Translations under genes and position numbers: made by a program
Source: Mermis nigrescens
Taxonomy: Eukaryota; Nematoda; Enoplea; Mermithida; Mermithidae
Length of the DNA stretch: 64,000 nucleotides
Direction of reading: 5' to 3'
Assembly: GCA_036768485.1 (NCBI GenBank)
Contig: JAVLUZ010000271.1
Location: forward strand, 4,260,309 to 4,324,308
Shown here: positions 18,672 through 60,928 of the stretch, in pieces
How the letters are laid out: each line of letters opens with the position of its first letter
Position numbering within the stretch: the stretch's first letter is position 1
Notes under the pieces: generated by a model
The model's database searches: none
The model's input: only the letters and a program-made list of their open reading frames with translations
What the model was told of the DNA's origin: nothing

Positions 18672-19280
18672 TTAAAAGAGTGCTTGTAAAGTTTGAGGAA
18701 AGTTAGTAAAGTTTGGAACATTTTTTGTAAAATTTAGAACATTTTGTGTAAAGTTTGGAACATTTCTTGTAATGTTTGCAACATTTTTGTATGGTTTGGA
18801 ACATTTTTTGTAAAGTTTGGAACATTTTTTGTAAAGTTTGGAACCTTTCTTGTAATGTTTGGAACATTTTTTGTAAGGTTTGGAACATTTTTTGTAAAGT
18901 TTGGAACATTTTTGTAAAATCTGGAACATTTTTTATAAAGTTTGGAATACGTTTTTTGTAAAGTTTAAAACATTTTTTGTAAGTCTGGAACATTTTTGTA
19001 AAGTTTGGAACATTTCTTGTAATGTTTGGAACAATTTTTGAAAGGTTTGGAACATTTTTTGTAAAGTTTGGAACATGTTTTGTAAAGTTTGAAACATTTT
19101 TCGTAAAGTTTGGAATACATTTTTTGTAAAGTTGGGAACATTTTTGTAAGTTTGGAACATTTTTTGTAAAGTTTGGAACATTTTGTAAAGTTGGAAACAT
19201 TTTTTGTACGTTTGGAACATTTTTTGTACACTTTGGAACATTCCTTGTAAGGTTTGAAACATTTTGTGTAAAGTTCAGAG
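18672..19280 (-). repeat. About 20-bp minisatellite, GTAAAGTTTGGAACATTTTT
   Basis: About 30 copies of 'gtaaagtttggaacattttt'. The minus strand gives a 222-codon Asn/Phe/Gln-rich frame that is a by-product of the period. It forms the outer edge of the large inverted repeat at 19.28-21.26 kb. The same unit occurs inside the Polinton at 28.69-28.87 kb and at 63.46-63.72 kb. Confidence 0.92.
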
Positions 19281-19800
19281 CAAAGCTTGTAAAAGTCAAA
19301 ATAAAGTTATATAAATATTCAGATATTAGAATTTGGCCACATTTGAAGGAATATATCTGCCCATATTGCATTCAAAAATCCTTGCTTTTATTTCCTAAGT
19401 TAATACAGCAAGTTGCAGAGATAAAGCATAATACATGTACACTGTTACGCATATGTACAGAAATTTATATTTGTGAGGCTACATTATCTGCCTTGCTGGT
19501 TAGGTGTAAGCATGGCAAACAGCTAGCGCAGTGTGCGCTAAAAATTCTGCTTGTTTATTGATAATGAGCATGACAAACCTAACCAAAGCACACACAAATA
19601 GCCAGAAATACACAAGACTATTCAAATTCCACACTACATTGGGAAAGTTTGTGCTGCAAGACTTAGCTTACTTGTACTAAAATGGATAACATTAACTGAG
19701 CAATTTAGCAGCATGACAAGCATCAGCTGCATGCTTTTGTATGTATTGTTAAAATATCATCTCAGTACTGCAAATCCTGATATTTGGCAGCAATATATCA
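19281..19800 (+). repeat. Left arm of a large inverted repeat
   Basis: Runs from 'aagtcaaaataaagttatat' to 'cagtactgcaaatcctgata' and matches the reverse complement of 20757-21260 at roughly 85-90% by eye. It encloses a short frame with no recognised domain. Confidence 0.85.
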
Positions 19801-22190: not shown

Positions 22191-22462
22191 TACTTGGGAT
22201 TGTGAATTATCGAGGATGTAAAAGGAGGGAGTTGGAAAATCTCCTATGTTATATGCCAAAAATCGCAAAATATGTTAAAAATTAGACTTTCTCTAAACAA
22301 TGCAAAAAGTCAAATTATATTCTGCGGTCTCTGAAAAAACGTATTATTTTAAAATAATTTTTCTGATTGAGATAATATCTTAAAAGCATATTACGTAATG
22401 CAACTTTTTGCAGACTTCATTCAACTTTGAGTTGCTTAATAATGTGACTGAAAGTGAAATGC
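22191..22462. mobile_element. Family A MITE, left part (split by the Polinton)
   Basis: 'acttgggattgtgaattatc', 'gatgtaaaaggagggagttg' and 'tctctaaacaatgcaaaaag' match the left terminus of other family A copies. It continues at 34068 after the Polinton. The last five bases, AATGC, are the target duplication. Confidence 0.85.
22458..22462. repeat. Polinton target-site duplication, left (AATGC)
   Basis: AATGC directly before the left terminus AGTAGTAAGG; repeated at 34068-34072. Polintons usually give 6 bp; I can match 5. Confidence 0.8.
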
Positions 22463-22702
22463 AGTAGTAAGGAGACCCCCCCGCGCGCATTTTGGGGGCG
22501 CCACACGTTATAACATAGGACGATTTTCCCGAGCTTTTCTACTTGGGGGCGCCATGCGGGTGACCGCCTTCGGCTACCCCCGCGAAAAGAAAAAAGAGTG
22601 GGTTAGTGGGAATCGAACCGCGAACAAAGCGGATTACAGTCCAACGCATAACCACATGCGCGATCTAAGTTGTTTTTAAAAAGTTAAAGTTATTAATAAG
22701 CC
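22463..22702 (+). repeat. Polinton terminal inverted repeat, left
   Basis: About 240 bp from AGTAGTAAGG to 'aaagttattaataagcc', matching the reverse complement of the right end. GC-rich outer half with CGCGCGCATTTTGGGGGCG. The minor capsid gene stops only 9 bp inside its inner edge. Confidence 0.93.
22598..22664 (-). ncRNA. tRNA-Tyr-like sequence in left inverted repeat
   Basis: Read on the minus strand: a D-arm-like hairpin CGCAT-GTGGTT-ATGCG, an anticodon-like loop GGACTGTAATCC (GTA in the Tyr anticodon position) and GGTTCGATTCC, a perfect match to the Pol III B-box consensus. The T stem and acceptor stem do not pair properly, so this is a tRNA-derived promoter or relic and not a working tRNA. 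It points outward, towards the element's left end. Confidence 0.6.
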
Positions 22703-22710
22703 GGATGAGT

Positions 22711-23490
22711 CTACCTAAGCGTTCTAAAATGTAGTTTTACGATAGTTTTTCCGAACTCAAAAGGCACAGGTTTATCTTGATCACTCTTAATGTTCACTTC
22801 AATTGTATTGAATGATTTTTTGAGCACAGGTATATAATGTGGACTAATATATGCGTGATTAACAATATCCATATACTTTCCTTCTATATTCACAACCTGC
22901 AGGAGCGGCGCAAAAATATTTCCAACAATTTGAGGCTCAACTATATCACAATATACATAAAAGTTATGCATTCCACCTAGCATGTCAGGCGAATGGTGCG
23001 CAACTATGTTCAATTCTTTCTTAACGGTATAATCTATATTGCCAAGCTGGCTCTCTAGAAATCCTAGCATATACATTAAATGCTTTGTAAGCTTCACACT
23101 TTGAATATATTCAGAATTTATTGTCAGATGACAAAATTTTCTATTTTCATCATACTTTATGCCAATGTATTGCATGTAATCAAATTTATCTATTGAGCTA
23201 ATCGTTTTTATTCCATTCCTGATGGCTTGAATGAGATCGTGTATATTTAAATACCTTGCTCGAGGTATAAGCAATTTTTGTCGCACATTGTTTTTTATAT
23301 CATAAAATTGTATCATATTCTGCTCCTCGGAAACATTGTGCCATGTATTTGCATAAATTATTTCTACTAAACCAACCTCCCACTCACCATTTAATACAAT
23401 TTGTCTAGGCAGATTGGTAACAAATGTGGCTGCAGTATTTGTTTCTTGTGAATTGCTTGGAAGAGTAAGGTAAAATTGTTTCATATCCAT
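22711..23490 (-). CDS. Minor capsid protein (penton-like)
   Basis: 259 residues, intact. It belongs to the Polinton family of minor capsid proteins (single jelly-roll, vertex or penton role), recognised from 'FYLTLPSNSQE' at the N-terminus, 'GEWEVGLVEI' (about 35-44), 'YVYCDIVEPQIVG' (about 178-190), 'SPHYIPVLKKSFNTIEV' and the end 'PFEFGKTIVKLHFR'. The family and its virion role are known from capsid-protein comparisons; the fold is inferred here. The ATG lies 2 nt after the protease stop. A TATA-like box (23513-23524) sits in the end of the protease gene, 23 nt upstream. Last gene of the virion module, ending beside the inverted repeat. No stops or frameshifts. Confidence 0.87.
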   Translation of the reverse strand: MDMKQFYLTLPSNSQETNTAATFVTNLPRQIVLNGEWEVGLVEIIYANTWHNVSEEQNMIQFYDIKNNVRQKLLIPRARYLNIHDLIQAIRNGIKTISSIDKFDYMQYIGIKYDENRKFCHLTINSEYIQSVKLTKHLMYMLGFLESQLGNIDYTVKKELNIVAHHSPDMLGGMHNFYVYCDIVEPQIVGNIFAPLLQVVNIEGKYMDIVNHAYISPHYIPVLKKSFNTIEVNIKSDQDKPVPFEFGKTIVKLHFRTLR

Positions 23491-23492
23491 GT

Positions 23493-23915
23493 TTACAACT
23501 TAAGTTTATTTAAGTATTTATAGATTTTTTCATGTTGCATTGATGTGACAATTTTCTTAAATGAAATACCTTGTGCACGGCAAACTAGAAAATAGATGCA
23601 CATGTGGCCGCATGAAATGCTAAATATGCCTTGAACTTTTGCATTATTGTATGTGTAAGCTTTTGCATTATGCTGTATATACTCTTTGAGCTCAAATGGT
23701 CTTCGTCCGTAGCTGTCAAAATATTCACAGTGTCCTTTGTGATTAAAATAGAGGGCAACCCAGTGGGAGCCAGGTTGATTGCTATCATCTAGGTTCACTA
23801 CAAGGGCAGCAGGGTAACTCTTAATGCGAGGTACAAGGTCTAATGGGAAAACACCTAAAAATGTACGATTTTGAAAAGCAGCTTTAAGGATTTCAATTAT
23901 TTCAATAGTATTCAT
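23493..23915 (-). CDS. Adenovirus-type maturation cysteine protease
   Basis: 140 residues, intact, shorter than many relatives (about 180-200). The expected catalytic set is present: His51 in GSHWVALYF, Asp67 in EYFDSYG, Gln95 in VQGIF (oxyanion-hole side chain) and Cys102 in SISCGHMCIYFL. These proteases (C5 / Ulp1-like fold) cut precursor virion proteins during maturation; likely substrates are the neighbouring core and capsid proteins. The gene starts 3 nt after the capsid stop and ends 2 nt before the minor capsid ATG. I saw no clear TCTATAAATACT box within 60 nt of its ATG, so it may be read from the capsid transcript or use the weaker 'gattataacgcat' just upstream. Confidence 0.93.
   Translation of the reverse strand: MNTIEIIEILKAAFQNRTFLGVFPLDLVPRIKSYPAALVVNLDDSNQPGSHWVALYFNHKGHCEYFDSYGRRPFELKEYIQHNAKAYTYNNAKVQGIFSISCGHMCIYFLVCRAQGISFKKIVTSMQHEKIYKYLNKLKL
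23513..23524 (-). promoter_or_regulatory. TATA box for minor capsid gene
   Basis: TCTATAAATACT on the minus strand, 23-34 nt before the ATG, inside the last codons of the protease gene. Confidence 0.7.
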
Positions 23916-23918
23916 GTT

Positions 23919-25211
23919 TTATGCGTTATAATCATGAAAAGTGTTACGGTTTTTGTCAATCATTATCAAATTGTCAAATTCAGCATATATAATAATTTCA
24001 ACACCTGAATCGGGCAAATTACCACTGAATTTTATATGAATGCTGGTTGTACCCTCGTGGATCAAATCCCAATGCCCACTATCATCTTCATCAGGAGTCA
24101 GGTCGAACACGAAAAAACAGTGACTCGTTTTAAATTCAGCTCTGCTAATAAAATTACTTTCACGCCCCAAATCTAATGCATCAAACATTTGATTAAAAGC
24201 TTGTAGGTATCTATCATGTTTAAATGAAATGCTGAGTGGGTAAGCAGGAAATGTTACACCACCACATGTTACTTTTACATCATTTATATTGAAAGGCTTG
24301 AAATTAAATGGTGATTTTTCTATATTACCTCGATAAGCACTGCCTTCAACACATGCAAATACAATACGCCGAGGGAGCTGACCAGTAAACAATGTATAAT
24401 TAGGCGTTTCTCTTGCTGGATTTGATAAATGCAAGTTGGTCATAGCCACTCTCCTTATGGGATATTTTGCAGTACACGATTGCATTGTTTGTTCAAGGGC
24501 TAGATTTACACTGTCCAAAACCTCAACTTTTCGAATGAAAAATTTCATTTGTAGGACCTGTAGTTCTAAATTTAAATCCTCAAAGCACTGCAAAACAAAT
24601 GCATTGCTATTTCTATGTAATTCTAGGCGAAAATCGGTAAAATTAAGCAAATATCTGTCTTGTGAAAACATGTCAATGTGCAGTGGAGCTAAAACTTCTA
24701 CAATGTTTTCATCCTTAAACATTTTTGACCGCTTTTTGAATGCTTCATTGTCTTTTGTGTCAACATCACCTCCACCTTCGTGAAAGTACAAGGCTGTCTG
24801 TAAGTGAGAATGCTTTGCATCATATCCAAAATTAAGCTCGGTTTCAAAATAAGCCCTGTAAGCGTATTTGTCAGAGCTGTCAAAAACTAATTGACCTCCT
24901 AAAAAGCACTTTACTTGCTTGAAAAAAGTTTTACCAATGAGATTGATAGGCGCATAGTCGGGTATTGCTGCCCCTGCAGCAACCGCTGGTTTCCTTATTC
25001 TTAGTAACATATAAATGTGGTTTTTGCTAAGTTGCAGATAATGTGGGTCAGGTGGTATTCGAAATTCGTATGGTCCTTCATTTGTAATTGGATGCGTTGG
25101 CTGGATTTCGTGCCAGAAGCCTTGTTTTATCACTACTTGGGTAGGAGGGACTGTGAAAAGGTCAAGTTCGGTTTTTGTACTTGGAGTTGATTTTATGTCT
25201 ATGAGAGCCAT
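23919..25211 (-). CDS. Major capsid protein (double jelly-roll, hexon-like)
   Basis: 430 residues, intact. It belongs to the large invertebrate family often labelled 'F54H12.2-like', the double jelly-roll major capsid protein of Polintons/adintoviruses. Family marks: 'FTVPPTQVVIKQGFW' near the N-terminus, 'PINLIGKTFFKQVKCFLGGQ' (about 88-107), 'YAYRAYFETELNFGYDAKHS' (about 116-135), 'PLHIDMFSQDRYLLN' (about 176-190) and 'LFTGQLPRRIVF'. It would build the icosahedral shell. The start overlaps the end of the pVI-like gene by 50 bp in another frame. A TATA box (25249-25260) lies 38 nt upstream. Length is typical of this subgroup. The clean frame contrasts with the broken polymerase. Confidence 0.92.
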   Translation of the reverse strand: MALIDIKSTPSTKTELDLFTVPPTQVVIKQGFWHEIQPTHPITNEGPYEFRIPPDPHYLQLSKNHIYMLLRIRKPAVAAGAAIPDYAPINLIGKTFFKQVKCFLGGQLVFDSSDKYAYRAYFETELNFGYDAKHSHLQTALYFHEGGGDVDTKDNEAFKKRSKMFKDENIVEVLAPLHIDMFSQDRYLLNFTDFRLELHRNSNAFVLQCFEDLNLELQVLQMKFFIRKVEVLDSVNLALEQTMQSCTAKYPIRRVAMTNLHLSNPARETPNYTLFTGQLPRRIVFACVEGSAYRGNIEKSPFNFKPFNINDVKVTCGGVTFPAYPLSISFKHDRYLQAFNQMFDALDLGRESNFISRAEFKTSHCFFVFDLTPDEDDSGHWDLIHEGTTSIHIKFSGNLPDSGVEIIIYAEFDNLIMIDKNRNTFHDYNA

Positions 25212-25608
25212 TATTTTTGTTTAGTATTGAAAAGGCATCATTCGTATTAGTATTTATAGACTTTGGGCGGCTACCAAGCCCTTCCCCTTGCTGCAGAGCT
25301 TTAGAGGCTTCATCAAACAATTGAGCAGCTTCTCGCTTTGAGTGTTCTTTAGTTGATTGAAAAAGGGGTTTTCCTTGCGCCAAATCAGATGCTATGTTTG
25401 AACCTGCAACTAGAGCATGTTTCCCAACTCGCTTACCAATTGACTGCAAAACTGGGATGGCCATTCTGAAAAGCGAACGGAAAAAGCTGCCTAGACCAAC
25501 ACCCCGCTGGTATGGGATGCCTTTAAACCCCTCCAACTCATAGCCCGCCTGCCCAGTGTAGTACTGAAGCCAAAAATTGTAATTGTCTGGATGAAATTGG
25601 ACATGCAT
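25162..25608 (-). CDS. Core/membrane-active peptide, adenovirus pVI/pX-like
   Basis: 148 residues, intact. The conserved block 'GVGLGSFFRSLFRMAIPV' (about 36-53) is followed by an amphipathic helix with 'GKRVGKHALVAGSNIASDLA', a pattern shared by small proteins next to the capsid gene in Polintons/adintoviruses and compared to adenovirus pVI/pX. The GxG step before the helix could be a protease maturation site. A role in core condensation or membrane disruption is inferred from the comparison, not shown. The C-terminus 'KSINTNTND' reads through the TATA box of the capsid gene. Its own TATA box is at 25639-25650. Confidence 0.7.
   Translation of the reverse strand: MHVQFHPDNYNFWLQYYTGQAGYELEGFKGIPYQRGVGLGSFFRSLFRMAIPVLQSIGKRVGKHALVAGSNIASDLAQGKPLFQSTKEHSKREAAQLFDEASKALQQGEGLGSRPKSINTNTNDAFSILNKNNGSHRHKINSKYKNRT
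25249..25260 (-). promoter_or_regulatory. TATA box for major capsid gene
   Basis: TCTATAAATACT, 38-49 nt before the capsid ATG, embedded in the 3' coding end of the pVI-like gene. Confidence 0.72.
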
Positions 25609-25638
25609 TTTTGTGAATTGCTACTGCAAAGTAATAAG

Positions 25639-25650
25639 AGTATTTATAGA
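25639..25650 (-). promoter_or_regulatory. TATA box for pVI-like gene
   Basis: AAAGTCTATAAATACT context, 31-42 nt before the ATG, in the only real intergenic gap (61 nt) of the virion module. Confidence 0.75.
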
Positions 25651-25669
25651 CTTTCATCCCAATCAAAAT

Positions 25670-26212
25670 CTATGTCAGTTCGAGCTGCTGCAAAAGGTGC
25701 CTTCCTTGTTTATTGCCAATGCTTTCAATTGGAACATTTATACGATTGAGTGCTTTTAGTAATTCTATTGTACCTGGGTGTTTGCTTATATTTTTTCGCT
25801 CACGGGCTAAATCATGCACTATATCTGTGACATTAGAACCATAAATTTCTTGGCCATCAATAACAAGCTGTCCACTAGGGGAAATTTCGATATTTGGACT
25901 GCTGTGAATGTAGTGTAAGAGCATTTTTGCTTTCTGATACTGCGATTTTGGGATATCTTCAAGAATTTCCACATCATTAGCAATTTGACTTTCTATGATA
26001 TTTGCTTTAAAAGGTTGTTTTTTCTTTTCCTGTAATCGCATAAATCTACCAACAAGCTGATTATATTTCATAAGCTTTACGTCAGGTGGTACACTCTTAT
26101 CACTAAAAAGTTTTTGCATCTCCTTGTCTAGAGTGCCAAGTAAGCTATCAACAGGTTTCCTTCGTTCAGTCAGTTCACTAGGTATTAGAATTATTTTTTC
26201 TGTGTGCTTCAT
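25670..26212 (-). CDS. Conserved Polinton protein of unknown function (180 aa)
   Basis: 180 residues, intact. The layout matches a protein commonly found between ATPase and capsid genes of invertebrate Polintons: 'LDKEMQKLF' in the N-terminal third, a middle helix-rich part ('KSQYQKAKMLLHYI'), then 'QLVIDGQEIYGSNVTDIV' (about 115-132) and 'ALNRINVPIESIGN' near the end. Predicted soluble and mostly helical, with no enzyme motif. Its start overlaps the previous stop (ATGA, 26209-26212), suggesting translation from a shared transcript or a promoter inside the upstream gene. Possibly a virion or assembly protein from its position; function unknown. Confidence 0.75.
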   Translation of the reverse strand: MKHTEKIILIPSELTERRKPVDSLLGTLDKEMQKLFSDKSVPPDVKLMKYNQLVGRFMRLQEKKKQPFKANIIESQIANDVEILEDIPKSQYQKAKMLLHYIHSSPNIEISPSGQLVIDGQEIYGSNVTDIVHDLARERKNISKHPGTIELLKALNRINVPIESIGNKQGRHLLQQLELT

Positions 26213-26559
26213 TTTCTACTTATTATTGCATCAGCTAATAGACTGCCAACAATTGAAAGTATGGGAGTGAGTAATAAAGGAAGAAACCCACCGTTCTGTA
26301 ATATAATGTCTTTTCTTTGCTTTGTTGTTGCCTGCTTATTGTTTGCTAGATATCTAATTTGATTCTGATACCTTCTAAGTGTGTTGGTGTCTTTTTCTAA
26401 AAAAGGAATATTACCGTTTAAAAAGTTATGAGCACAATCACATATGCAAAGAATCTGATCCTTGCTAGCAGTATTTATTAGCGCGTTTCTCTGAGGTTTC
26501 TTTGCAATGCTTAGCACGTGTAAACAACTTATATTCCGTTTCAGTCGTTTTGGAGCCAT
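26209..26559 (-). CDS. Conserved small Polinton protein with hydrophobic tail (116 aa)
   Basis: 116 residues, intact. Basic N-terminus, a central region 'ILCICDCAHNFLNGNIPF' and a Lys/Arg-rich stretch leading to a hydrophobic segment 'GGFLPLLLTPILSIVGSLLA' (about 90-109). Proteins of this shape, with the GGFLP...L tail, are frequent beside the Polinton ATPase gene. The tail could insert in membranes or be an amphipathic virion peptide; the role is not known. A TATA box at 26587-26598 lies 28 nt upstream, inside the ATPase gene end. The stop overlaps the next ATG as ATGA. Confidence 0.75.
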   Translation of the reverse strand: MAPKRLKRNISCLHVLSIAKKPQRNALINTASKDQILCICDCAHNFLNGNIPFLEKDTNTLRRYQNQIRYLANNKQATTKQRKDIILQNGGFLPLLLTPILSIVGSLLADAIISRK

Positions 26560-26568
26560 CTTAAATTT

Positions 26569-27208
26569 TTATTTTTCATTTTCATTAGTATTTATAGACT
26601 TTGGTACATAAATAGATGGATGTTTATTGAATATATTCGTTTTTAGCCTATAAGTGTCCATAATATTTTGTGTTAAATCGATGAAAAGATACCCGTGAGG
26701 TTGAGAAGTTGCATCTGAATAAGCTTCTATAAAATATTTTTGATTGTTAGGATAAAGCTGTCGAGATAAAACTTGTGCCTGTAACTGATCAGCAGGATTT
26801 TTAAATAGCACAATATAATCAGAATTTATGCGAGAAGTGCGCAGGCCATCAAAAAATAGGTTTTGCACTATGTGAATGACACTGACATTCCAGTGGTGGC
26901 AACCTCGTGTAAATAATTGTATGATTTGCCCATTGCCTTTAGTTTCCTGCATCAGATCGTCAAGTATAAGTAGTTGAGGCGTTGGGCTTGTCTCTTTGAG
27001 TCTGTTAAAGTTTGGCAACCCTTTTATGAAGGTGACATTTTTTATTTTCGTGTATAATGGCTGATCTTCTGTAAAGCACCACCAAATTTTTGCAATTTTT
27101 GTGTCAATTATGTCTTTCACGATTTTCTATAAGCTCTTTCACAAACGTTGTTTTACCTGATTTTGTAGGGCCTGAAACAATGCATGTAAAAGGATGCTCT
27201 AAAATCAT
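26569..27208 (-). pseudogene. Packaging ATPase (FtsK/HerA, A32-like), frameshifted
   Basis: The N-terminal frame starts at the ATG 27208-27206, which overlaps the integrase stop as ATGA. It carries Walker A 'GPTKSGKTT' within its first 22 residues, then hits TGA at 27104-27106. The rest reads in another frame from about 27120 with Walker B 'QLLILDDL' and ends 'YVPKSINTNENEK'. One frameshift near 27110-27125 separates the halves, which otherwise cover the family length (about 215 residues). The family pumps DNA into capsids. The C-terminal KSINT is the reading of the next gene's TATA box. Sequencing error is an alternative explanation, but integrase and polymerase are broken too. Confidence 0.92.
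26587..26598 (-). promoter_or_regulatory. TATA box for the 116-aa gene
   Basis: AAAGTCTATAAATACTAATG context; 28-39 nt before the ATG at 26559, within the ATPase 3' end. Confidence 0.72.
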
Positions 27209-28261
27209 TTTGGTTGCTCATAAAACTTCAGTTCTCTCTTTGTTAATTCTGTACTAAACTTATTTGGCCAATTTTTGAATTTGACTTTGTATGTCCCTTT
27301 ACCAGTATTTATAGCCTTTGCAACTCGCTTATGCATTTCAGCCTCTGGTTCAGCCACTTGGAGCTCCTTTCTATAAAATGCTCCAATTATTGGCTCTCCC
27401 ATTAAATCCTCCAATCTGTATGTTTTAGGGCAACTGTCTGACTCCTCTTTTATGCGAAACAGCTCATCGGTATATGTGTGCTTGCTTGCTTTTGCAAACC
27501 CGCTTTTGAGTGAAGTTATTCTCACAAGTTGTCCAATAGGTAGTGCTGCTTCTGATTTACACATTTTTCTATTTTTTAGCATAAATGCTAATAATTCTCC
27601 TGTATTTTCAGAATTTACATCATTTGGGGCTGTATTGTTAAGGCTACTATGAGGCGTGCTATTATAGCTCTCAATGATGCTTTTATATACCTTTGTCCAA
27701 TTTTCATTTGAATAGTATGTCATGTATCGCATGAGCTTGTCACGGAATGTTCTATGAAATCGCTCCACAAAATTAGCCTTAATCTCGGGACTACTTGTCA
27801 ATATATGCTTGATTTTGTATGACTTAAGCAATCTATTAAATTCCCCTTTAAATTCATTACCATGATCAGTTCGCACTGCCTGAGGGATGTTAAGGGGCAA
27901 TATCTTTTCAAAAGCTTGTGATGCAGTCTTAGCACTTTTATTAGTCATTGCCTGTCACATAAGCTTTACGCGAAAAAACATCAATAGCCATCAATATGTA
28001 TCGATTTTTATAATTTTTATTCCTAAATTCTTTAAGATCAAGAAGATCTACATCCCACAGAAGATTAGGACCTGAAACTATAATTGCCCGCCTAGGAAAT
28101 CGCTTCCTCACTGGTTTATGCAATTGATAAGTAAACTGTTTAGACAAAAATTCTTTTACTCGCTTATTTGATGCTTTGCTAACTTTTTGCAGTTTATTGA
28201 TACCTGCAAATGCGCCCGGCTTGCCCACCTCAGTCCACTGTATCTTTAATGGTTCCATCAT
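27205..28261 (-). pseudogene. Retroviral-type integrase with chromodomain-like tail, frameshifted
   Basis: Two frames overlap at 27941-27948. The upstream part (28261-27941, 106 codons) has 'LHKPVRKRFPRR' and the first catalytic Asp in 'LLWDVDLLDL'. The downstream part (27948-27205) has the second Asp in 'RTDHGNEF' and the Glu in 'NFVERFHRT', 33 residues apart. It ends with a chromodomain-like stretch 'GTYKVKFKNWPNKF'. The DDE residues therefore survive but are split by a one-base shift near 27945-27960. This enzyme inserts the linear element into host DNA. It shares a short divergent promoter region with the TBP-like gene at 28304; the stop overlaps the ATPase ATG. Confidence 0.95.
27304..27315 (-). 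promoter_or_regulatory. TATA-like box inside integrase, possibly for ATPase
   Basis: GCTATAAATACT (one base off the consensus), 96-107 nt before the ATPase ATG, further than the others. It reads as 'AINT' in the integrase frame. Confidence 0.45.
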
Positions 28262-28303
28262 TTATAAATATAGACAAAGAAGAGTTTAAAGTATTTATTA
28301 AAA
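28262..28303. promoter_or_regulatory. Divergent promoter between integrase and TBP-like gene
   Basis: 42 bp containing TATAAATATAGAC on the plus strand (28264-28276, 28-40 nt before the TBP-like ATG) and AATAAATACTT on the minus strand (about 28290-28300, 29-39 nt before the integrase ATG). Both resemble the element's box. Confidence 0.55.
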
Positions 28304-28656
28304 ATGGTTACCATACAAAACATTGTGTTGACTACATGCCTACCAAATGTGCTTGATCTAGATGACATCTACCTGAAATTACCAAATAATCAGGAAAAAT
28401 TGTATGTCTTGGAGCAAAAACTATACAAGAAGGCGAAAATACGATAATGTTGAAAATAAAGCCTGTGCTGTTTGTTGGCTCGGCTAACTTGGGATTTCGC
28501 ATTGATCTTTGTAAGTTTTATGAGCTGGTGAAAAGAAAATGCATGTACGAAGTAGAATTATTTCCCGGCCTAGTATACAAATTTAGAAATGTGACTTTTT
28601 TACTCTTTACAAGCGGAAAAATGATTCTCACAGGTGCAAAACACAAGCATGCTTGA
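28304..28656 (+). pseudogene. TATA-binding protein-like gene, broken
   Basis: Two consecutive plus-strand frames. 28304-28447 (47 codons) starts 'MVTIQNIVLTTCLP', like the start of the first TBP repeat, then jumps to a helix-like end. 28447-28656 (69 codons) matches the second TBP repeat: 'VGSANLGFRIDL', 'ELFPGLVYKF' and 'LLFTSGKMILTGAK'. Both DNA-intercalating phenylalanine positions of that repeat (in LFPGL and LFTSGK) are kept. The middle of repeat 1, about 35-40 residues including its Phe pair, seems deleted. The frames differ, so there is a frameshift near 28440, and the end after TGAK is cut short. Divergence from conserved animal TBP argues against a recent host retrocopy. It is the only plus-strand gene of the element. 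Confidence 0.85.
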
Positions 28657-29042
28657 GAAATGCAGATTAGATACATAATATTCGAAACTTCACAAAAAAA
28701 TTTCCAAACTCTGCAAAAAATTTTCCAAACTTTACAAAAAAATATTCCAAACTTTACAAAAGTACTATGCTTAAGCATGTAAAATTAATTCCAAACTTTA
28801 CAAAAAATATTCCAAAGTTTACAAGAAAATTTTGAAACTACAAAAAAATTATCAAATTTTACAAGCTTTTGTGCCCATTTGTCGATGTCCGATCCACACC
28901 ACAAGGAGGTTGGCACAATGGTGGATCATTTCCAGCTAAAATTTTTACTGGCAAATTCAAGACTCCTGACCACGTGCCCATTTAAGTAGGATATCAGGCG
29001 CCTTGTTATCGTGCATGAGAGAAGCTGAAATTTATTTAAAGT
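28657..29042. repeat. 20-bp minisatellite and conserved hairpin between convergent gene ends
   Basis: 28690-28868 holds degenerate units 'ttccaaactttacaaaaaat', the unit of the arrays at 18.7 and 63.5 kb. At 28869-28918 TTGTGCC pairs with GGCACAA around 'cacaccacaaggagg'. The same hairpin-plus-minisatellite order follows the polymerase tail in the remnants at 63.3-63.8 kb, so it belongs to this element lineage. It may end transcription for the converging polymerase and TBP-like genes. Minus-strand AATAAA lies near 29032-29037. Confidence 0.7.
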
Positions 29043-32000
29043 TTATATATCTAGCGGGACTGTTGTTATTCCATCAGGTAGAACCTATCTCTTAACATAC
29101 AGGTATGGAAGTCCCTACTTTTCTTGTATGTATGTCCACATTTGATTATCAGGTTGCATGCGGAAACCAATATTTCTTCCACCTTGAGGTTCCTGATTTT
29201 GCAAGACATTGCTGTATTGTTCAAAGCTGAGCTTGTTTATTTTTTTCATCAAGCCTTTACTGCTAGCTTTGATTTTGTTAGTTTCCTCATCTATAGAAAT
29301 GTATGTTTTAGCTGCCAAACAACACATTGCTGTTCCTCTGAATTCCTCTTTTAGCAGCCCTGGAGTTCTTTTGGTTGCCTTTGATGTTACAAACCAATAT
29401 GGATATGCATTTTCGAACTCCTGCCTTCTTTCTGGCTTAACTATATCCAATAAATTTTCTGCAGTCAGTGCCAAGTAAATGCTATCTGTATCGGTCTGCA
29501 AACACTGATAATCTGCCTTATCAAAATATTTCAATAATATATCATAGAAAAATTCTAACATGCGAATTTTAGCCCAATTATACACTGAAAGGCCGACTAC
29601 AATGGGCAGATCTAAAGTTATTTCTTTCTTACGCATGTGTACTTCATAGCAGTTATTAGTAATGTGTTTTATTTTCTTAATATAAGGACTCAGGCTGCAT
29701 TCAGCTGCTTTTTCATAGTCAGCATAAAATACATCTATATGTTGTTCCTTGTTTGTAAGAGTCTTGCCATAACCTGTGTTTCCGAGCAGCTTAAACGTAT
29801 CAGCAATCATAGCAAGTTCTCGATCTTCATCCCCTTCTTGCCTATGCTTCGTGACTGTATCTCGGAATTTTTCAAATGGTCTTGCTCTATCATATTGTAT
29901 TACCTCGTGTATTTTATCCAATGCAAGGCCATGATTAATTAAAAATCTGATCATTTCTGTAGATAAGATGATACTTTTTCCAAAATAGCTACTTATCAGA
30001 TTTTGGCGGGGCTTTTTCAGTAAATCAATTTTTTCAGCATACTCTTTCATGAGAGACCCAATGTCTTCCCTACTAATTTCAGCATGCTTTATAATTGGTG
30101 GAAAATCAGCATAAAGGTCTCTTAAATGATCAGGAGTTGAAATATCTACTTTGGCAAAGCCAAAGACAGATCCATCAAGAATAGCCTGAATCATTTCCTT
30201 AGTGCTAACCCAATTTTTTGAATAAAAATGTCTAACGTTTTGGGTTTTTAGATATTCTGTACGTAGCTCATGCCATTGACACTCCCATATAGTAATGAGA
30301 TTGTATCCCAATGATTTTGTGTAAGCTTCCTTCTCCTTAATCCACTTTTGGGCCTCCTCTGGATCGATGTCTTTGTTTCGGGTGCCTGCTAAGCAATTGT
30401 GGCCATGCCAGAAACAGCCATAAAACTCATAGACTGTATTTGTTTCAGTACAAAAGCCATCAACTGGTAAGCATCTAGGGCCCACAACTTTTTCTTTTCC
30501 TTTCCCTAAATGCTGCATTAAATGATTTATTTTTTGACTTTCATATTCCAAAAATTCAATTGATACTGGCTTGGCAGAAGAGATTTTATGAAATTTATCA
30601 TTTTTCTCAGGAAGCCAATGATCAAAATAGCCTACTGGCGTGTCCATAGATTGTGCCCATAAATATAGTGCATTAAAATCGAGGCCAACTATTGCTTTAA
30701 CTGGTTTGCTGGGATTGTTGCATATATATGTTTTATCTTTTATTGCAAGGCGTGTCATGACCATAGAAAGGCCCCCTCTCATGCTTGATTTAAGAGTATA
30801 GTATACATCTTTAGACAAGGATGCAAAGAGCGCAAATTGGGTTTCCGGAATATTTTTGAAAAGGTAGCGTTCTGTGATGCCCGGAAGTGACATTGCCTCT
30901 CTAAAAATATCAATTCTAAATCTGTCCCAGTACAGCTGGGCCATAGTTATACAAGCTTCTAAGAAAGGTACAACATCTCTTAGATTGTAAAATATGAGGT
31001 AATCCTTTAAAGTTCTCATATTGTATTGTTTCCAGTAAATTTGACATTGTTTGTAATCTTCCATGCTTATGCATTCTTCTTTTAAGGTGCTGTAAAATGC
31101 TTCAGGAGGAGGCAACTTGGATTCAGATAACTTATGAAAAGAATATAAATATTCATAAGGGAATTTCGCTTTGACAAGGCTTGCTTTATATGCTTTCATA
31201 AATGCATCTAAGCTAAAACCTGGGGCTACACAGGTACTGATGTCTAGAAATTTGAAAAGATGTGTAGATAGGCAGAGTGTTGTGCCATTTCTCAGAATGG
31301 CTTTTGGCCATTTATTATTTTGAGGATCCTAACGCACTTTCTGTATGAGTGCTGGGAACAAGTTGCGTTTGATTAAATTCAGGTCATACTTGCTTGAGTT
31401 GAAGCCAAGGCAAGTTAACTGAGTGCAGTACCTGTGTAATTCAATTCTCAGTAAATTCAAATGATTCAGGAACCCTTTTTCGCGCCTTACATCCCTTTCT
31501 CTATGTTCCTTAATGTAGGCGATCTGATTTTGAATCTTCTGATTGAGGGCTTTAAAGATATCTTGAAAGTATGGTAAGAGTAGGGCGCTTTGCGCCTGCT
31601 GAATTTTTTCAAGATGCTGTAGTAACTGTATGATCAGTTGATCAGGATCCTCATTTATGAGACATGTTGGTTCAAATCCTGGCACATTTGTATTTACTGC
31701 ACATGAAATGGGTTGATGCTGTGTTATAAACTGTAGTTTATCTGAACCTTTAACTTCTTTTTTAATTAAAATTGCCTCAAAGTCATATACAGCCAGATAA
31801 GGACAGAAATGATTTTCTATTGGAATGTCGAGATCAGCCAGTTCTTCAAAAACAGTTTTCTTCTGTTGAAACACTCCACCTGGAAATTTGTGCTTTGTCT
31901 CACCCTGATTACAATGATATTTAGCATGCTGACTTAAGTATTCAGACTTTTTGAATAATCTGCTGCACATGATACACAGGTATCGCTTTGCATACTGATC

Positions 32001-33283
32001 GAGATTTATGATATAGCTATAGTGTGCCTGATCAGAAGCAGTCATTGAAACATCTAAATTTAACAGTTTGTCATATTTCCTAATCACGTTTTTCCAACAA
32101 ACAGCTGTTTGCTTATCAGCATCGATATGAAAACACTGAATATCTACTTCGAACCATTTTTCTATTTTTTCCAAATCAGTATATGGAACTCCTTCAAAAT
32201 ATTAAGTGTTTGCTTGAATATTTTTATTTTGACAATACTGTACAAAAAGTCTATAAACTGCATCCGGTTCAAAATTTTCAAAAAGACATTGTGCTAAGCA
32301 ACGGAAAAAGCAGAGATTGTCATTAAACTTGTGTCTGTTGCTATCTTGTGTCATGTGCAATGTATGCCTTTGATTGGTTACTTCTATCGGAAGTGAAATA
32401 TCAGTGCAACCAGCAACAAAATTTTTCTGAGGAGTTACAAAAAATTCTACATTTTTTATAGCCTGAAGTCCCCATTTTGTATCTGGGCGGCTGAATTTTT
32501 CCTAAATATCCATTTCTTCAAGCTTTTCTGCTAAATTTTTCACATCATCACTGTTTCTGATTAGAACTGGCTTTCCACGAAGGGTAAGATTATTTTGGCA
32601 TGCATACCAGTAATTGCTTACACCAGTTTCGCGATTTTTCAAAATACAACCTAATGCTGCATCCACGCGGAATGCTTCTTTTTCAATATTGAAAATATCA
32701 CTTAGCATATCTAAGTATTTACCGGTTCCCCAGCGATAATTATAGGCATGATCTAGCACATCATTTATGCTTTTAGTTGTACATATCAAATTCCAGTACT
32801 TCCTGACTTCCTCCCTAATATTATCAGGGTAGTTGAACAAATTTTCTGGAAGAAAACTGTCCTCAGGCATAACTGTAGTCTGAACAGGCTCAACTTTTTC
32901 TAATTTAAGTCCTGGATTAGCTTTTACTAGTAAGCATGCTATCATATGAGTGTCTGAGAAAGGATCTGATGAGTCACAATACATGCACTTTTTTCTACGT
33001 GCTTAGTCTCAAAATGCGCACAAAGCTTTCTAGGAAGCCTAAAAAGTGATGCACATGAAGGGCAGCGATACCTAGCACCTATGTGCACAGATTCCTCATG
33101 CTCCTTTAACTTGTTAGATCGTGTGAATGTTTTGTTACATGTTGTGCAAGTGTGCAGCTTACGCTCCGGAAGCTGCGATTGGTTTGAGCCGGCCTCAAAA
33201 AAAGTTACTGGCATCGGCCGGTGAAGGCTATTTTTTAGCCCTTCTGAGACCAGTAACCCCGGAATTCTGACGTTTGTAGTCAT
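29043..33283 (-). pseudogene. Protein-primed family B DNA polymerase, five stops and one frameshift
   Basis: About 1,400 codons. From the ATG at 33283: C2H2-like fingers ('CTTCNKTF', 'RCPSCASLF'), a frameshift near 32985-32998, a third finger-like 'CMYCDSS', TAG at 32502-32504, the block 'DNLCFFRCLA', TAA at 32202-32204, exonuclease motifs 'YDFEAIL' and 'GFNSSKYDLNLIK', TAG at 31329-31331, ExoIII 'FYNLRDVV', 'MRGGL', motif A 'GLDFNALYLW', a Vsr-like insert ('GCFWHGHNC', 'IWECQW'), motif B 'KLLGNTGYGK', motif C 'DTDSIYL', TAG at 29115-29117, TAG at 29085-29087 and a terminal TAA at 29043-29045. Apart from the frameshift the frame is continuous, so the stops are point mutations in one gene. It would copy the linear element by protein priming; dead as it stands. 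Confidence 0.97.
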
Positions 33284-33616
33284 AATTTCCAGAATGTTCC
33301 TAAACTTATATATTTGAAATTAGAAAGAGTTTTAATATTTATAGACTTAGTCGGATAACAATTTTTACTCGAAAATTTCTTATATTTATAGACTTTTTGA
33401 TATTTATAGACTTTTGATATAGTCGGATGACAAATTTCGCAGAAATTTTTGATATTTATAGACTTGATATAGTCGGATGCTATGCTTAAAACTAGTCACT
33501 TTTTGACAAAAAAAGTGCATCAAATCCGCTTATATCTCCTATTTAAAACATTAAACTCACGGGTTGAACCGAATATGTGCTGCCATCTTTGTTTTGGCAC
33601 TTTGCCAACGGAATTC
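33284..33616 (-). promoter_or_regulatory. Polymerase promoter region with four TATA boxes
   Basis: TCTATAAATAT at 33334-33345, 33381-33392, 33399-33410 and 33451-33462 (minus strand); the first lies 51-62 nt before the ATG. Three are preceded by ATCCGACTA(TATC), giving a roughly tandem unit ATCCGACTATATCAA-AGTCTATAAATATC. No reading frame in this stretch. Confidence 0.75.
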
Positions 33617-33662
33617 GCCTTATAAATAACTTTAACTTTTTGAAAACAACTGAAATCGCGCA

Positions 33663-33868
33663 CAGGGACGTAACCAGGATCTTATTTTGGGGGTGTCTGA
33701 ACAGTTTTGGGGGGTCTCAAAGGGTAAAAAAACGACGTTCAACTTGAAGATGGCTTATTTTCCTTTACTCCCCCTTTGAATTTTTTTGTGACGATTCCAT
33801 TTTGGGGGGTCAAAAGACATTTGATTTTACAATTATATTGAAAGGATGAAAAATCTTAATTTAAAATT
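33663..33868. mobile_element. 206-bp insertion in the right inverted repeat
   Basis: Starts 'cagggacgtaaccaggatct' with G-runs, lacks a frame, and is flanked by TCGCGCA on both sides (33656-33662 and 33869-33875); the left repeat has that word once. A 7-bp duplication marks a short non-autonomous transposon. The 'CGTAACCAGGAT...GGGGG' opening resembles many invertebrate DNA-transposon ends; family not assigned. Confidence 0.75.
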
Positions 33869-33869
33869 T

Positions 33870-33936
33870 CGCGCATGTGGTTATGCGTTGGACTGTAATT
33901 CGCTTTGTTAGCGGTTCGATTCCCATTAGCCCATAC
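33870..33936 (+). ncRNA. tRNA-Tyr-like sequence in right inverted repeat
   Basis: Counterpart of 22598-22664: CGCAT-GTGGTT-ATGCG hairpin, GGACTGTAATTC loop region, and B box GGTTCGATTCC. It points to the element's right end. B box intact, stems imperfect. Confidence 0.6.
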
Positions 33937-34067
33937 TTTTTTCTTTTCGCGGGGGTAGCCGAAGGCGGTCACCCGCATGGCGCCCCCAAGTAGAAAAGCT
34001 CGGGAAAATCGTCCTATGTTATAACGTGTGGCGCCCCCAAAATGCGCGGGGGGGTCTCCTTACTACT

Positions 34068-34072
34068 AATGC
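34068..34072. repeat. Polinton target-site duplication, right (AATGC)
   Basis: Directly follows the right terminus ...CCTTACTACT and matches 22458-22462. Confidence 0.8.
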
Positions 34073-59180: not shown

Positions 59181-60190
<1,010 letters not shown>

Positions 60191-60202
60191 TCTATAAATA
60201 CT
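60191..60202 (+). promoter_or_regulatory. Polinton-type TATA box
   Basis: TCTATAAATACT, identical over 12 bases to the boxes of the 22-34 kb element, 33-44 nt before the ATG at 60235. Confidence 0.65.
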
Positions 60203-60234
60203 AATAATTCTTTCATTAATTTAAATCTTCAAAA

Positions 60235-60559
60235 ATGGAGGAAAATATGGAACTGAGAAAACGTCCTTTTCACGGATGAGGAAAAGAAACCTTATGGGCG
60301 GACAATACGACCGCCTATTGAGTTATGTGGGAGGAATCTGGAGCGTCCCATGTACCCTCTCATGATACATTTATGTCATTTTTGTCAAAAAAATTCGTCT
60401 GAAAAAGACGTTTTTGAAACAAATTCAGGAAAATGGTATTTTAACGTTCAAATGTGCCCAAGATGTTGTGAATATAATCGGGCATCCCAGGAGGCTGGGA
60501 ACATGATGATTAAGAAATATGTTGCTCAACAGGTTGAAGAAGCGAAAAATGGCTTGTAA
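60235..60559 (+). pseudogene. Small protein with two CxxC pairs, frameshifted near its start
   Basis: The ATG placed correctly after the TATA box (60235) gives 14 codons then TGA. A second frame, open from 60257 and with its own ATG at 60350, runs to 60559. It carries 'LCHFCQKN' and, about 30 residues later, 'MCPRCCEYN', a CxxC...CxxC layout typical of a zinc-binding knuckle, followed by a charged helix. A frameshift near 60245-60275 would explain the mismatch of promoter and frame; a downstream start at 60350 is the alternative. Family unknown. Not present in the complete Polinton, so possibly an accessory gene of a related element. Confidence 0.5.
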
Positions 60560-60560
60560 A

Positions 60561-60572
60561 GTTATAAATATG
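60561..60572 (+). promoter_or_regulatory. Polinton-type TATA box
   Basis: GTTATAAATATG, 30-41 nt before the ATG at 60602, just after the stop of the preceding gene. Confidence 0.55.
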
Positions 60573-60601
60573 AGCGATATCTGACAAAAAGTATCTACAA
60601 A

Positions 60602-60928
60602 ATGAGTTCTCAAGGTGAATTGAGTTTTAATCATTTTGTGACCAAGTTGGCTGATAAAGCCTGCACGAGGTACATCACTTCTCACGATGTGCAAAGCATT
60701 GGCTCCTGCTTTTGGAGTTTGCTTTCTGAAGAATACAAAGAAAATCGCAAAAGCCTCGATAATCGGAAAGCATTTTGGAATTTTGCGCTTTATGTGAAAC
60801 GATGCCTAATAAATCGTGAAATCGAGCCTATTTTAGATTTATGGCAAGATTTCGATCAAAATGGCAAAAATACATGGGAAAGCATGTATGAAAATTGCCT
60901 AAACGAGCGAGTTAGTCGTGTATTATAA
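60602..60928 (+). CDS. Unknown 108-aa protein
   Basis: Intact frame 'MSSQGELSFNHFVTKL' to 'LNERVSRVL'. Mixed, globular composition with Trp (FWSLLSEEY, AFWNFALYV, LWQDF, TWESM), predicted helical, unlike the low-complexity frames elsewhere in the window. It follows the CxxC gene by 42 nt with its own TATA-like box, so the two form a pair. I recognise no family. No homologue is visible in the complete Polinton here; an accessory gene of a related element or virus is plausible. Confidence 0.6.
   Translation: MSSQGELSFNHFVTKLADKACTRYITSHDVQSIGSCFWSLLSEEYKENRKSLDNRKAFWNFALYVKRCLINREIEPILDLWQDFDQNGKNTWESMYENCLNERVSRVL

Follow-up and report, generated by a model that had tools for sequence, protein, structure and literature searches.

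Several groups of DNA viruses are known to encode a TBP of their own. According to PMC10132985, TBP is present in 59% of mirusvirus genomes, and megavirus is credited, in PMC11464507, with both TBP and TFIIB alongside RNA polymerase subunits of its own. Sporadic TBP genes have also been described in endogenous viral elements of Cymbomonas, for which PMC10675990 reports no identified PolB or DJR capsid gene. Mavirus, a relative of the Polintons, has an AT-flanked TCTA motif common to its genes, the counterpart of the late promoter of the giant virus CroV (PMC8547959).

The locus described here lies in a stretch of 64,000 nucleotides of the nematode Mermis nigrescens (contig JAVLUZ010000271.1), hereafter the window, and is the remains of a TBP gene carried by a Polinton, or Maverick. 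Mirusviruses and giant viruses likewise combine a DNA virus with its own TBP, but do so in large genomes, whereas the element in the window measures 11.6 kb; small integrated elements thereby join the viruses known to carry TBP. In its inverted repeats, rve integrase, adenain-type protease and probable PolB, ATPase and capsid genes the element matches described Polintons, from which it differs by the added TBP, and its relatives by added F-box genes. To our knowledge, neither TBP nor F-box belongs to the standard Polinton gene list. A TBP in several lineages, together with a shared extended TATA box, offers a direct and testable answer to the question of how Polintons switch on their genes in the nucleus.

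No report of TBP in Polintons turned up in the literature searches, which covered few subscription papers; the original prediction had suggested that such a gene may be new. Terms for TBP are absent from PMC10120064 and PMC4642659, and where the search word turned up in PMC12220804, PMC13037468 and PMC4722103 it is an author's name or a primer.

The Polinton and its genes

The element and its principal features, in window coordinates, are as follows.

22463..34067, no strand: Polinton/Maverick element, 11.6 kb, with an inverted repeat at each end, flanked by the 5-bp target-site duplication AATGC (22458-22462 and 34068-34072)
22463..22663, plus strand: left terminal inverted repeat, starting AGTAGTAAGG; it agrees with the right repeat in 193 of 201 columns
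23493..23918, minus strand: adenain-type protease (Peptidase_C5, 3.2e-6, over cut-off)
23919..25220, minus strand: probable major capsid protein, 433 aa, open (DJR-like domain, 0.007, below cut-off)
26569..27126, minus strand: probable packaging ATPase (Pox_A32, 0.016, below cut-off; 61-81% identical to fragments of this gene in L022, L023 and L028)
27205..28261, minus strand: rve integrase in two frames, with the break at about 27941-27954 (rve_3, 7.9e-7, over cut-off)
28304..28444, plus strand: start of the TBP gene, the first ~27 residues of repeat 1 and then out of frame; 78% identical to family C over 32 aa
28390..28656, plus strand: remaining part of the broken TBP gene, covering the end of repeat 1 (SGKIVCLGAK) and a repeat 2 that lacks its last helix (PF00352, 4e-20)
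28677..28864, no strand: 21-bp minisatellite between TBP and PolB
29115..33319, minus strand: probable DNA polymerase B, broken into several frames; 72% identical to L019 and 26% in alignment to L016
33869..34067, minus strand: right terminal inverted repeat, pairing with the left over 193 of 201 columns

The usual target duplication of a Polinton is 6 bp; here five base pairs match and the sixth does not. The element is in decay, its integrase lying over two frames and its PolB over several, yet its capsid frame is open. The broken PolB frames that were submitted gave no Pfam PolB match; DTDSIY, which we take to be PolB motif C, can be read directly in them, and the PolB piece of L016, a more distant relative, matches DNA_pol_B_2 at 2.7e-10. 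Pfam revealed no RNA polymerase gene in the element frames submitted and no sign of TFIIB or another transcription gene in those tried. The window's capsid protein was scored at 97 places in the host genome at 86-100% identity, its own included and best matches only, and two further places tie with its own score.

Two minor features accompany the element. The minisatellite has words in common with an array at 18703-19371, outside the element, and both inverted repeats (22600-22660 and 33870-33930) hold a tRNA-like stretch, called by neither ARAGORN nor Rfam, with GGTTCGATTCC, which to us resembles a Pol III B box.

A broken TBP gene in the window

The original prediction read the plus-strand frame 28447-28656 as the C-terminal repeat of a TBP, and so it reads: the 69-aa piece matches PF00352 with an E-value of 6e-17, and residue alignment places both DNA-kinking Phe of repeat 2 within it. 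Far from lacking a significant profile match, the enclosing open frame 28390-28656 matches PF00352 strongly (4e-20, in two stretches), its 71.9 bits against a curated cut-off of 22.9 placing it in the family. The original prediction saw a C-terminal repeat here; the TBP-like reading stands, but the enclosing frame 28390-28656 opens with the end of repeat 1. A second, upstream frame, 28304-28444, had been likened to the start of repeat 1, and it does open with MVTIQNIV, although its own PF00352 match (0.019) is under the Pfam cut-off. Offsets against the sister copy L054, relative to which 73, 36 and 35 bp are missing, replace the picture of two separate frames with that of one gene with internal deletions. 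The window copy thus retains parts of both TBP repeats.

As predicted, the gene lies inside the element, between inverted repeats 22463-22663 and 33869-34067, and runs divergently from the integrase, 42 bp separating the two start codons. Among PDB sequences the window frame has 35 distinct matches (best 7e-17), named TBP or TFIID apart from one ECU04_1440 protein; four of the 35 are fusion constructs containing TBP. AlphaFold, run on the window piece alone, returned a pLDDT of 46.9, too low for the model to be of use. The piece is 89% identical to a member of family C, one of the families described below.

TBP genes in several Polinton lineages

The host genome (524 Mb) contains at least 150 places that match the TBP profile (the best 150 of 2551 candidates); two of these (C73) belong, as exons, to the TBP gene of the host itself. 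By a tally made by eye, in which some genes count as two rows, 121 of the 150 listed rows lie in stop-free frames of at least 160 residues. Twenty places were read with their flanks and 20 more, all of families A-C, as 0.9-kb pieces; those read sort into seven groups, A-C as one and then D, E, F, G, H and I. A shares 70-76% identity with B or C, B and C share 82-88%, D shares 44-48% with A-C, and the remaining pairs of different families share 30-54%. The element frames are ~165-190 aa long, and any N-terminal extension is short. Two TBP repeats stand in one protein in members of E (PF00352, 3.5e-50, 168.2 bits) and C (1.7e-40, 137.2 bits), each matching in two stretches, and in the alignment of nine relatives. 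Several Polinton lineages are shown to carry a full, single-frame, two-repeat TBP gene.

In A-D, F and G their neighbours include Polinton core genes. TBP adjoins the ATPase gene in families A and C, and in A is also near capsid and integrase genes; in B there is a capsid gene at fixed spacing, the link to the ATPase being made by that spacing and by the flank. It adjoins an F-box gene in D, with PolB or integrase near, PolB in F, and capsid, protease and 22711-type genes in G; in family I, PolB pieces lie near TBP in L027. No core gene was found in the stretches read around the TBPs of E and H. The neighbours in E are o2693 and F-box-like pieces, with large inverted arms in L009. The original prediction proposed a search for intact orthologues between PolB and integrase: open-frame relatives do exist, though their position is not always that one. 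Around the capsid genes, a TBP from the top 150 lies no more than 12 kb away in 12 of the 97 scored cases, and in 10 of the 12 the spacing is the same, against an expectation of 0.007 per MCP; since both lists hold best matches only, the count is a lower bound on linkage and is silent on the share of elements that have no TBP. The original prediction of a Polinton-borne TBP holds. It did not extend to the damage in the window copy, to the presence of the gene in many elements of several lineages, or to the extended TATA motif common to other genes of the element.

Some features of these neighbourhoods deserve separate mention. F-box genes recur near TBP, by Pfam at L016:4024-4908 (F-box-like, 1.2e-11) and L015:4764-5666 (4.9e-8), below cut-off at L026:4543-5001 (0.0017), and by similarity at L017:4457-5341, L018:1346-2194 and L028:1567-2394 (broken); they are possibly a way to steer host protein degradation. 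In L009 (94-5433), two inverted arms, 1.55 and 0.5 kb long and 97-99% identical, flank a family-E TBP; each carries the same gene of ~240 aa, one copy of which has no Pfam match. Two unlike TBP genes lie within 3 kb of one another in L015 (1705-2019 and 3392-3934) and in L028 (489-1004 and 3336-3851), which may represent two TBPs in one element or else nested elements.

Erosion among sister copies

Sister copies of the window element were taken from places at the window's spacing with a capsid identity of at least 93%, 14 being fetched of 18 such other places. TBP sequence is present in nine of the 14, and none was found at the expected spot in the other five. The frame is unbroken over the fetched piece and free of internal loss in L054, L057 and L058, and unbroken with an in-frame deletion in L067. 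Erosion in the window's subfamily is partly inherited, because the 36-bp loss is also found in L064-L067. Since the window element combines intact capsid frames and motifs with a broken TBP, and five of the 14 sisters showed none where it was expected, an element may be able to do without the gene or be supplied with its product in trans; supply from other copies would explain the persistence of elements whose own TBP is broken.

Descent and selection

TBP is among the slow-changing proteins of the cell (host and yeast TBP are 77% identical), and a genome that holds many divergent TBPs in mobile elements amounts to a natural experiment on which parts of the protein are needed for bending, for TFIIB and for repressors. 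Ten relatives are 31-44% identical to host TBP and the window piece is 43% identical over 58 aa, which is far from the near-identity of a host retrocopy that had landed in the element; recent retrocopies of host TBP are ruled out by the values for the ten relatives. The tree places A-C and D in one clade (94/95) and E, F, H and I in another (88/89), with family G nearer to cellular TBPs at values short of firm support (70/49). A single clade of all ten element rows, and with it one origin for all of them, is neither established nor rejected (p-AU 0.376).

Other sources of the gene were considered. Identity with TRF2/TBPL1 was rejected: TBPL1, represented by an unverified sequence on a long branch, fell with the cellular TBPs, and the element TBPs retain the kinking Phe. 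In the tree that includes it, family G stands beside the cellular group at 80/81 and the other families stand apart. IMG/VR yielded no relatives in single-protein scans with TBP, integrase and PolB, and none with a capsid alignment; a TBP alignment retrieved only five loci (L029-L033), archaeal-virus-like. These are TBPs by sequence, 25-31% identical, and their archaeal origin is read from the sequences, but the three used in the tree form a clade of their own (100/100), and an origin of the element genes from archaeal-type viral TBPs was set aside. In L029-L032 the TBP genes lie on archaeal-looking viral contigs of 40-166 kb.

For families A-E, the ratio dN/dS (Nei-Gojobori) was calculated. 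It is 0.12-0.20 from A to B or C, rough values because dS is near 1, 0.15-0.25 from B to C, and 0.13 within D. Young pairs, with few changes, give higher values, namely 0.72 within E (seven changes) and 0.46 and 0.66 within C.

Residues of the element TBPs

Ten relatives were compared under yeast TBP numbering, with roles (kinking Phe, TFIIB-facing, basic H2, minor-groove) taken from the TBP literature. As in eukaryotic TBP (PF00352), there are two repeats, kinking Phe and TFIIB-facing residues: an aromatic residue stands at each of the four kinking positions in all ten rows (40 of 40; 39 F and one Y, at the fourth position), E186 and E188 are present in 10/10, and L189 is L or I. Unlike eukaryotic TBP, the element proteins have no conserved basic helix, each row having at most three K or R among H2 positions 133, 137, 138, 141 and 145, and in A-D the minor-groove positions are changed, N159 to L or M and T124 to V. 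The basic helix is where TFIIA and TBP repressors hold cellular TBP. Judged by these residues, the element TBP would be a protein that bends DNA and binds TFIIB, but whose minor-groove face is altered and whose contacts to TFIIA and to repressors are weakened.

An extended TATA box shared by element genes

Several genes of the element are preceded by AAAGTCTATAAATA, and the extended TATA box GTCTATAAATA occurs seven times inside the element, where a Markov model expects 0.011, and nowhere else in the window. All seven lie on the strand that codes for the capsid and PolB genes. With no prior choice of word, AAGTCTATAAA, which lies in this extended box, is the most enriched 11-mer (eight inside, none outside). 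Allowing up to one mismatch, GTCTATAAATA is found at 12 places in the window against 2.8 expected. The boxes placed before genes, together with the plain box of the TBP gene, are these.

23515..23525, minus strand: ATCTATAAATA, one mismatch, before gene 22711-23499
25251..25261, minus strand: GTCTATAAATA, 50 bp before the ATG of capsid gene 23919-25220
25641..25651, minus strand: GTCTATAAATA, before gene 25162-25620
26589..26599, minus strand: GTCTATAAATA, before gene 26209-26568
28263..28268, plus strand: plain TATA box TTTATAAATA, with no GTC, 41 bp before the TBP ATG
33336..33463, minus strand: four GTCTATAAATA (33336, 33383, 33401 and 33453), upstream of PolB

Relatives of families A, D, E and F also have the box before genes; in G it takes the form GTCTATAAAA. 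In a set of 39 gene starts, drawn from the window and from 11 loci, the form [AG]TCTATAAA was sought 20-80 bp upstream, the motif having been picked on the window and then counted on hand-picked relatives; it precedes 15 of 27 non-TBP genes, 35-63 bp from the ATG, and none of 12 TBP genes (Fisher p 0.0009, on rows that are not independent). By gene, it was found at MCP (2/2), g25165 (3/3), g26212 (2/2), PolB (1/1), o2693 (3/4), o4028 (2/2), oMASP (1/1) and 22711-type genes (1/2), and was absent from all ten starts of PRO (0/2), g25673 (0/2), INT (0/3), ATPase (0/1) and F-box (0/2). The MCP of L020, whose start is unclear, was left out of the count; AAAGTCTATAAAAG lies upstream of it. The TBP genes themselves have in 10 of 12 cases a plain TATA-like box at -36 to -47, with an AT repeat in H and none near in E. 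Many non-TBP element genes are thus shown to have an extended TATA box in common, TBP genes having at most a plain TATA-like one.

The mavirus TCTA motif is likewise shared by the genes of a Polinton relative, but there it is a promoter of the CroV late type, whereas here the box is longer and the elements have their own TBP. In families A-C, 20 of 22 copies have TCTATA(A/T)ATA on the opposite strand, immediately ahead of the start codon of TBP. In the copies counted, this box precedes the ATG of the divergent frame (the ATPase gene in L022) by 42-43 bp. IMG/VR, scanned with an 18-base motif, gave two contigs, L068 and L069.

How the element TBP may be used

We lean towards a reading in which the elements encode their own promoter recognition, an early TBP serving the extended TATA boxes that precede the capsid, PolB and other genes; "early" and "late" are our proposed labels for the two gene classes. 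The TBP gene, along with the integrase, ATPase and F-box genes, would be on early, from a host-type TATA box. Its product would then bind the extended boxes, bend them with its four Phe and recruit host TFIIB and RNA polymerase II, and, with the basic helix lost, could act outside host control by TFIIA and TBP repressors, so that late genes would be transcribed on the element's own terms. Against this mechanism, the same motif is found across families with widely differing TBPs, G included, and for that reason TBP and motif do not visibly co-vary; moreover, host TBP could read TATAAATA too. The elements with a broken TBP, the high ratios of young pairs, the changed N159 and T124 of A-D, the lack of a TFIIB gene in the frames given to Pfam and the ten gene starts that have no motif also weigh against it.

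A fuller two-step version is possible but more doubtful, in which an early, fast-diverged TBP is freed from host regulators and itself recognises the GTCTATAAATA of the late genes, with o2693 perhaps reading the GTC. If true, an element of 12 kb would achieve a minimal transcriptional take-over, and it would be possible to trace a viral general transcription factor alongside its promoter through many copies.

It is unlikely, though consistent with the motif being common to families with very different TBPs, that host TBP and another GTC-reading factor, such as the CxxC...CxxC protein o2693, read the box and leave the element TBP minor or redundant. In A, D and E the gene o2693 does recur in the vicinity of TBP, and the motif precedes three of its four starts; mavirus has its motif in common with CroV, whose factors would read it (PMC8547959); the low dN/dS of TBP in A-D speaks against a redundant role. 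We also think it improbable that the element TBP is an antagonist that occupies host TATA boxes or TFIIB and so shuts off the host, the element's genes using host factors. Retained TFIIB-facing residues with a lost basic helix would suit a partly working competitor, and the repeated presence of an F-box gene close to TBP suggests that host proteins are manipulated, but the kinking Phe and most minor-groove residues examined are retained, and the element genes have strong TATA-type boxes of their own. That TBP is a mere passenger, a captured host retrocopy in decay, is hardly credible: the window copy is broken and at only 4/14 sister sites is the TBP frame unbroken along the stretch fetched, with an in-frame deletion in one of the four, but identity to host TBP is 31-44%, dN/dS between families is well under 1, and many copies are open in several lineages.

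A second Polinton piece lies elsewhere in the window, at 60190-60928. It contains o2693 (60257-60556), zinc-ribbon-like in its CxxC...CxxC pattern and with no Pfam match over cut-off, followed at 60560-60928 by an apparent relative of the oMASP gene, and has ATCTATAAATA at 60190.
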